Shown here one piece after another: positions 18,282 through 34,041 of a DNA stretch of 60,422 nucleotides (its first letter is position 1; the number at the start of each line of letters is the position of its first letter). The position numbers were made by a program, and so were the translations under genes. Under the pieces are notes generated by a model. The model did not search any database, had not been told where the DNA came from, and saw only the letters and a program-made list of their open reading frames with translations. This stretch comes from Bacillus sp. SJS (GTDB lineage Bacteria; Bacillota; Bacilli; Bacillales; Bacillaceae): the NCBI RefSeq assembly GCF_000732485.2, contig NZ_JAQV02000001.1:1-60422 (forward strand), in the 5' to 3' direction.

Positions 18282-18317
18282 AAAACCCCCGGATAGCGCG
18301 TAACGGGGGTTTTCTTT
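18282..18317 (+). terminator. Terminator after ksgA
   Basis: AAAACCCCCG / CGGGGGTTTT perfect 10-bp stem with a 12-base loop and a short T-rich tail. The repeat array starts 14 bases later. Confidence 0.85.
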
Positions 18318-18750
18318 GTTTCATGCCCTTCCACCGTCTCTCAGGGAGGACTGCACGATGCAGGTCAGTTCTGCGTTGCGGCAGGACGGCGCGCTTATAG
18401 CAGAACCTCCATACTAGAAGCCGCCTGCGCTTTTCTTGGTGTCCAGCTCCGGGCGCTGTGCCGCAGGGCCATTTCACCCCCTCGGTCGAGGCAAAGAACG
18501 CCTCTCGGTCGGGGGCTCCAATGTCCCAGTCGGCACGTGCAAGCGCCCTCCGCTTTTCTATGGTGTCCAGCTCCGGGCGCTAGCCCTTCGGCCGCTTCAC
18601 CGGTTCAGTCAAAGTCAAAGAGCGACTTTGCCAGTCCCGGCTCCATCGTCTCTCACAGAGGCCTGCACGATGAAGGCCCGTTCAGCGTTGCGACAGGACG
18701 TCGCGCATTTAGCTGAACAACATAACTTGGGCGCCCCTCGGTCGAGAGCT

Positions 18751-18840
18751 CCACCGTCTTTCACGGAGGCCTGCACGATGCAGGTCAGTTCTGCGTTGCG
18801 GCAGGACGCCGCGCTTTTAGCAGAACCTCCTTACTAGAAG
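18751..18840 (+). repeat. Repeat module A (reference copy A3)
   Basis: 90-bp module. Predicted pairs: CCGT/ACGG hairpin at the left; GGAGG (18765-18769) with CCTCC (18826-18830) as outer stem; CCTGCA-CGA-TGCAGG (18770-18784); TTCTGC (18789-18794) with GCAGAA (18820-18825); and GCGGC-AGGAC-GCCGC (18798-18812) inside it. The result is a compact branched fold. Copies A1, A4 and 33813-33902 are nearly identical; A2 differs but keeps both inner stems by paired changes. Confidence 0.8.
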
Positions 18841-18938
18841 CGCCCTGCGCTTTTCTTGGTGTCCAGCTCCGGGCGCTAGCCCTTCGGCCGCTTCACCGGT
18901 TCAGTCAAAGTCAAAAAGCGACTTTGACAGTCCCGGCT
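18841..18938 (+). repeat. Repeat module B (reference copy B3)
   Basis: 98-bp module. AGCGCCC (18839-18845) pairs with GGGCGCT (18871-18877) around the conserved GGTGTCCAGCTCC; next a small GCC-N4-GGC hairpin; then CAAAGTC (18906-18912) with GACTTTG (18920-18926) around an A-rich seven-base loop. In other copies the first stem is CCGCC/GGCGG and the last is GAGGC/GCCTC, so structure rather than sequence is kept. Confidence 0.8.
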
Positions 18939-19170
18939 CCACCGTCTCTCACGAAGGCCTGCACGATGCAGGTCAGTTCTGCGTTGCGGCAGGACGCCGC
19001 GCTTTTAGCAGAACCTCCTTACTAGAAGCCGCCTCCGCTTTTCTTGGTGTCCAGCTCCGGCGGCTAGCCCTTCGGCCGCTTCACCGGTTCAGTCAAAGTC
19101 AAAGAGCGACTTTGCCAGTCCCGGCTCCACCGTCTCTCAGGGCTGAGCAAGCCGCCTCCGCTTTTCTTTT

Positions 19171-19198
19171 CACAATTTCCTTTTTCATACATAGGCTA
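19171..19198 (+). promoter_or_regulatory. Sigma-K-type promoter of yabG
   Basis: CACA (19171-19174, MACM pattern) and CATAGGCTA (19190-19198, CATANNNTA), with 16 bp after the AC. yabG is sigma-K dependent in B. subtilis. The site begins five bases after the repeat array ends. Confidence 0.7.
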
Positions 19199-19252
19199 AA
19201 AAAGGATCCATATGCAGGTATGTTCCAAAATCCCCCGTTTTGGAGTGAGAAT

Positions 19253-33773: not shown

Positions 33774-33780
33774 CCTGTAT

Positions 33781-34037
33781 CGAGAGGACGTCGCGCCTCT
33801 CGGTCGGGGGCTCCACCGTCTTTCACGGAGGCCTGCACGATGCAGGTCAGTTCTGCGTTGCGGCAGGACGCCGCGCTCTTAGCAGAACCTCCTTACTAGA
33901 AGCGCCCTGCGCATTTCATGGTGTCCAGCTCCGGGCGCTAGCCGTTCGGCCGCTTCGCCCCCTCGGTCGAGGCAAAAAACGCCTCTCCGTCGGGGGCTCC
34001 ACCGTCTTTCACGGCTAAGCAAGCGCCCTCCGCATTT
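33781..34037 (+). repeat. Modular repeat array, locus 2
   Basis: Same modules and orientation as at 18331-19166. Order: B tail with stem CGAGAGG/CCTCTCG (33781-33812), long A (33813-33902), B (33903-33998), short a (33999-34023), B start (34024-34037). It again fills the gap between a terminator and the next gene (spoVT to yabM), and stops just before the yabM promoter. Confidence 0.9.
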
Positions 34038-34041
34038 CATG

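Follow-up and report, generated by a model that had tools for sequence, protein, structure and literature searches.

What occupies the space between ksgA and yabG of Bacillus sp. SJS is the question raised by this locus, where about 840 nt of repeats with paired changes in their stems are found between the end of ksgA (18262) and the start of yabG (19253), both genes being named by reading of their translations. Coordinates refer to the window, which is the whole stretch of DNA that was analysed (60,422 nt), and the region 18328-19211 of the window shows direct repeats that are 188 and 167 nt long. The locus probably consists of tandem copies of a Bacillaceae mobile repeat that is neither coding nor autonomous.

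The ksgA-yabG array and Bacillaceae-1

The sequence-only reading of this DNA had described two alternating modules, A and B, for which no named family was known. Read on the minus strand, both modules are instead parts of one composite element (Table 1). A search of Rfam, which that reading had suggested, identified module A (four of four copies, minus strand) as Bacillaceae-1 (RF01690) and gave no match for module B, for which the lack of a named family holds. Covariance-model scores of all five RF01690 matches in the window are above the gathering score of 35. A scan of the array to an E-value of 5 returned the A copies only, together with three matches far under their gathering scores, and since this permissive scan yields nothing else credible, module B is placed outside Rfam. 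The Bacillus sp. SJS genome (4,148,080 bases in 36 contigs) contains 27 Bacillaceae-1 matches.

Bacillaceae-1, to which module A belongs by score and structure, is a family of 67 nt filed as sRNA, whereas here it forms part of a longer and very likely mobile repeat. Its hairpin loops are of the UCCU type: the first is nearly invariant and the second is often UCGU, including in the copies of the window. It is a candidate structured RNA of Weinberg et al. 2010 (PMC2864571), the accessible part of which names it in a table row only, and eight Bacillaceae-1 structures of B. subtilis are given in the accessible part of the BSGatlas paper (PMC8208703). The literature search found no published function of Bacillaceae-1 and, with most subscription papers outside its reach, no published description of the composite; a full-text search with the exact end strings gave only unrelated papers among the matches listed. 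The bcr1 and stem-loop families of bacilli are also intergenic structured repeats, and the part of the paper that was accessible (PMC2267715) names no element with these ends. The A core is already known, and the novelty lies in the composite, how it turns over and the strand test described below.

Table 1. Features of the ksgA-yabG array and of the element's second locus in the window
Feature	Position	Strand	Score or basis
Terminator-like hairpin 3' of ksgA, immediately ahead of the array	18285..18320	+	by reading of sequence
Unit 1, A core 1 inside; truncated, without the GGAGCTGGACA end	18331..18434	-	sequence
A core 1, Bacillaceae-1 (RF01690)	18350..18416	-	55.9 bits
Unit 2, 118-nt unit, GTGCC/GGCAC helix type (B1 of the sequence-only reading)	18440..18557	-	
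Unit 3, long, two A cores	18564..18854	-	
A core 2, Bacillaceae-1, TTCAGC/GCTGAA type	18662..18728	-	57.4 bits
A core 3, Bacillaceae-1	18770..18836	-	75 bits
Unit 4, one A core	18860..19042	-	
A core 4, Bacillaceae-1	18958..19024	-	75 bits
Unit 5, canonical 118-nt unit with a leading G; one-rod fold	19048..19166	-	
Second, smaller locus of the same element	about 33780..34040	-	
Second-locus A core, Bacillaceae-1	33832..33898	-	75.8 bits

Structure and turnover of the composite element

The composite element has conserved ends, a rod-like unit of 118 nt, head-to-tail arrays and inner hairpin modules, Bacillaceae-1 among them, that are gained and lost. Its anatomy was obtained on the minus strand by reading 20 loci of the SJS genome and 33 of its 34 end sites. 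The element starts with GAAAAGCG, ends with GGAGCTRGACA and is closed by a GGCGC/GCGCC or a GCGGC/GCCGC stem; of the terminal inverted repeats expected in a MITE, what was observed is an inner GGCGC/GCGCC stem near the ends. The canonical unit, which is the simplest, is 118 nt long and forms a single rod, units of about 180 nt and more have a Bacillaceae-1 core inside, and further units have a CATAAG...CTTATG hairpin inside. Adjacent units are mostly separated by spacers of 5 or 6 nt, and a few copies share an extra 3' tail of approximately 50 nt. The pattern GGAGCTRGACA has 34 sites in the genome, at least three of which (C3, C5 and C16) look by reading like chance matches within coding DNA, and the reversed control pattern has one. 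A script located an AAAAGYG start upstream of 28 of the 33 inspected end sites, often at a distance of 116-119 or about 174-185 nt.

By reading, the Bacillaceae-1 core appears to be common to at least three different outer frames. Among the sequences listed, genome G296 shows a near-identical core (GGCATGC..GCATGC, loop GTCCT) in both frame I (GAAAAGTGG ... CTAGACA) and frame II (GAGACTCCTG ... GGAAAGCGAGC), and a third outer frame, CAGTGGGGG, is found in other genomes. Crude motifs assigned 139 cores to frame I (42), frame II (24) and frame III (18), with 55 unclassified.

Units are gained, lost and replaced within one species. In G308, a genome of the same species whose yabG differs at one of 448 bases, the left boundary of the ksgA-yabG array (the truncation of unit 1) is identical; this locus has fewer units there and two A cores rather than the four of SJS, and the second locus has four A cores rather than one. 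Indels of at least 15 nt, in or beside the arrays, are found in 16 of 20 orthologous loci, and those without such indels are L005, L006, L011 and L020. Among the clear cases, the difference is a single unit (122-125 nt) in L001, L007, L014, L021 and L022, and three units (362 nt) in L004. Furthermore, a 58-nt hairpin segment is missing from the SJS copy of L026/L330, the A core lies in the first unit of one genome and in the second unit of the other in L013/L337, and an entire unit is replaced in L042/L338. A mechanical count of indels of at least 15 nt gave 33 in 8,755 array columns versus 11 in 52,590 columns outside, seven of these 11 being at one locus. Because A cores served to retrieve the G308 loci, the sample consists of sites with a core in that genome; among the SJS loci compared, L042 has no core. 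Some of the array differences may be assembly collapse because the SJS genome is a draft.

In addition, one occupied site is empty in relatives. L027 (contig C9) has an insertion of approximately 240 nt in SJS, and the site is empty in G308, G305 and G307, shows a different repeat in G309 and is too divergent in G306. Since the site is empty in one genome of the same species and in two relatives, the comparison indicates that the element is very likely mobile. This clean insertion is one case and its A core does not look young (52.6 bits); recombination may therefore have brought it in from another strain. No target duplication was readable at the L027 insertion, where an A-run is located, and no consistent one was found when unit spacers and flanks were compared by eye.

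Among relatives, the ksgA-yabG region still has units in G309, only a right-end remnant in G305 and none in G306. In named genomes the gap was measurable in 77 of 80 loci, and the end motif, as an exact pattern, was found in three of the 77: Neobacillus bataviensis, Anoxybacillus tengchongensis and Peribacillus saganii. In the empty sites of Anoxybacillus the terminator region is replaced too, and boundaries are therefore inexact.

Other arrangements and repeats were observed around these two genes. In Metabacillus mangrovi (L050), tblastn and reading show yabG inverted between ksgA and veg, with ksgA and yabG tail to tail, and in G307 (L300) the sequence 5' of yabG looks the same. In Sutcliffiella deserti the gap between the two genes (1331 nt; about 1670-3000 of L104) contains another long hairpin repeat, GATCGC..TTTCCGCGGGGCGG..GGGGTCTCCC, in several copies. 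By reading, the gap in L095 shows a Bacillaceae-1-like hairpin pair within a CCATCAGTGGGGG/CCCCCACTGATGG inverted repeat, and the gap of Neobacillus drentensis (L113) shows a tandem repeat, GAGGACAAAGA..CTGTCCGCATGAG.

Covariation and the comparison of G-U and A-C pairs

The repeats with paired stem changes described in the sequence-only reading are present in the sequence, and across 60 A cores of 37 genomes the pairing exceeds chance. Module A shows the change from GCGGC/GCCGC to GCGAC/GTCGC and from TTCTGC/GCAGAA to TTCAGC/GCTGAA, and module B shows that from AGCGCCC/GGGCGCT to AGCCGCC/GGCGGCT and from CAAAGTC/GACTTTG to GAGGC/GCCTC. In the alignment of A cores, SJS contributes 24 and 36 other genomes contribute one apiece. 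Two-sided change was found in 16 of 17 pairs, 97.6% of the cells pair, and changes were two-sided in 258 cells and one-sided in five. The covariation score was 0.674; shuffles gave 0.203 +/- 0.012, and slid partners reached no more than 0.121. Four of five measures were above every shuffle, the shuffles ignoring kinship, and the fifth, further pair types, was not (32 versus 30.1; 111/500).

For the strand test, loci were scanned with a profile restricted to unpaired columns, to keep the scan from selecting stems; the Rfam model had supplied the loci, which for most genomes were the best-scoring ones. The scan, which was ungapped, yielded 139 cores (132 distinct) in 37 genomes and recovered 25 of the 27 SJS matches (24 distinct). 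It gave no core from the loci of G034, G048, G085, G018, G266 and G125, and in the alignments inspected the missed cores differ in length. The 132 cores comprise 2,244 pairs: 2,118 Watson-Crick, 17 G-T, 33 A-C and 76 other, 59 of the latter being in genomes G207 and G296. Counted by cell on the Rfam strand, there are 33 A-C versus 17 G-T (p 0.03), which is an excess of G-U on the complementary strand (the GGA strand, after the GGA of its first loop). Counted by genome-by-pair event, there are 16 G-U versus 21 A-C (p 0.51). Eight more cores taken from Rfam alignments (five from G125, two from G048 and one from G052; seven of them from genomes missed by the scan) comprise 136 pairs: 120 Watson-Crick, two G-U, five A-C and nine other.

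As a control, 61 of 880 pairs in 41 tRNAs that ARAGORN detected in the collected loci were G-T (Fisher p 2e-20 against the A cores), a G-U share of 6.9% versus 0.8% in A cores; the A-C count of the tRNAs is not comparable because ARAGORN records allowed pairs only. The outer stems of 24 distinct units from SJS, G308 and G305 swap sides (e.g. CG 9, GC 14), and their 480 cells include 459 Watson-Crick, six G-T, one A-C and four gaps.

G-U is tolerated in an RNA helix, so G-U intermediates would be expected often on a functional strand, and they are nearly absent on both. We infer that this pattern fits selection or copying of DNA hairpins better than a functional RNA made from one strand. The sequence-only reading had ascribed the compensatory changes to a folded RNA or hairpin DNA: covariation is indeed strong, and the rare and symmetric G-U and A-C pairs favour hairpin DNA, with RNA still compatible. 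The excess of G-U by cell on the GGA strand goes against a fully symmetric reading, and the A cores were obtained through the Rfam model, which possibly favours well-paired copies and counts against a DNA-level reading.

In a mobile repeat of this kind, pairing would be maintained at the DNA level, either by recognition of an extruded or single-stranded hairpin during movement, or by template switching in which one arm is copied from the other. Units might multiply in arrays by recombination or slippage, and new sites could be reached via a recombinase acting in trans. The very conserved loops need some ligand that the mobile-element reading does not supply, which counts against it. More broadly and only tentatively, a widespread mobile hairpin DNA may exist in Bacillaceae, in which helices are swapped as cassettes, Bacillaceae-1 being the most shared, and which is moved by a recombinase reading folded single strands. 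If such a cassette system is true, the "covarying RNA" signal would be a DNA signal.

Strand, distribution and alternative explanations

A different role, which we consider rather unlikely and for which the support is mixed, is that of a CsrA sponge: transcripts of the Bacillaceae-1 complement, with paired hairpins that have CAGGA(C/T)G loops, would bind and titrate CsrA. The CsrB repeat is CAGGA(U/A/C)G. According to the accessible part of the 2014 paper of Gardner and Eldai (PMC4333381), the discoverers of Bacillaceae-1 were unsure of its strand, and the proposal of a sponge came from motif matches, the reverse complement of Bacillaceae-1 matching the CsrA-binding motif. The likeness to sponges of the CsrB/RsmZ type consists of paired GGA-loop hairpins, here on the complement strand; unlike those sponges, the elements are dispersed intergenic repeats with no dedicated gene, the second GGA is often lost and G-U has no event-level signature. 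In favour of the sponge, at least 126 of the 132 cores retain GGA in the first hairpin; the second has it in at least 74 and lacks it in at least 48. In all four copies of the ksgA-yabG array the second loop is CGA, and unit 5, which has no A core, is also without GGA on that strand.

Among 299 genomes sampled from the order, at least 147 have RF01690 and 283 have csrA. This survey used stricter filters and about 16 scored candidates per genome, so its counts are minima and weak cases are lost. In favour of the sponge, RF01690 is present in 144 of 283 csrA-positive and three of 16 csrA-less genomes (Fisher p 0.018, uncorrected for kinship; seven of the 16 belong to one family and three are only 62-90% complete). 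Genus g25, where 10 of 13 genomes have no csrA match, shows RF01690 in two of three csrA-positive genomes, both rich in copies, and in none of the 10 csrA-negative ones. Against it, 139 csrA-positive genomes showed no RF01690 under the stricter filters, and the three csrA-less genomes with copies have 2, 10 and 6 matches, one of these genomes being 7% contaminated.

The Rfam strand is opposite to the fork direction in 17 of 21 clusters of G308 and 20 of 26 of G305, and antisense to both co-oriented neighbours at 13 of 17 and 12 of 17 loci, respectively; since the two genomes in part share orthologous loci, these loci are not independent. In G308, base 1 was taken as the origin, given the position of ksgA at about 58 kb, and half of the length as the terminus, ORF calls were mechanical, and gene and replication orientation are not separable, both genes being against the fork at one locus only (1701344). 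The GGA strand is thus co-directional with both flanking genes at those 13 G308 loci, which agrees with a sponge and would also fit a transcribed function, against the mobile-element reading; the G305 proportion gives p 0.14. The G-U excess of 33 to 17 on the GGA strand likewise agrees with a sponge, but it disappears when counted by event.

It is very unlikely that the Rfam strand of Bacillaceae-1 is a small RNA gene in its own right, the arrays being duplicated RNA genes: this reading accords with the sRNA type in Rfam and with the strong covariation, but the core is nested in larger repeats of several outer frames by reading, the Rfam strand has no G-U excess and is antisense to both neighbours at most G308 loci, and copies are gained and lost within the species.

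Also very unlikely is an element of the REP/BIME type moved by a RAYT (Y1) transposase, which shares hairpins, intergenic arrays and the replication strand bias, but the unit here is longer and modular with no linked Y1 transposase, the two Y1 genes of SJS are not flanked by element ends, the copy-rich G296 and G073 have no Y1 match, and Y1 locus L286 adjoins a different palindrome array. Six of 12 Y1 loci were scanned for ends, and a 9-nt end-like string was found in L289 and L285, in the latter within the coding start of the Y1 gene itself; no end-flanked Y1 gene was seen in the six, and RAYT mobilisation is unsupported. The search found no transposase linked to the element ends. Blastn with one B unit and one A unit gave no match in plasmids and blastn with the array gave none in phages, searches that short divergent copies could escape. 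At 1000-1340 of L286, the Y1 (RAYT-like) gene of SJS is located beside tandem TTTGTCTGAC..GTCTGACAAA palindromes, which are a candidate separate REP family.

Taking the array as a mobile repeat, the placement of Bacillaceae-1 within a composite of this kind alters what experiments should seek. The comparison of G-U and A-C pairs is a cheap test with which, in other families already catalogued, covariation of DNA hairpins could be told from that of RNA. Were the CsrA reading true instead, the repeats would spread CsrA sites into many intergenic regions.
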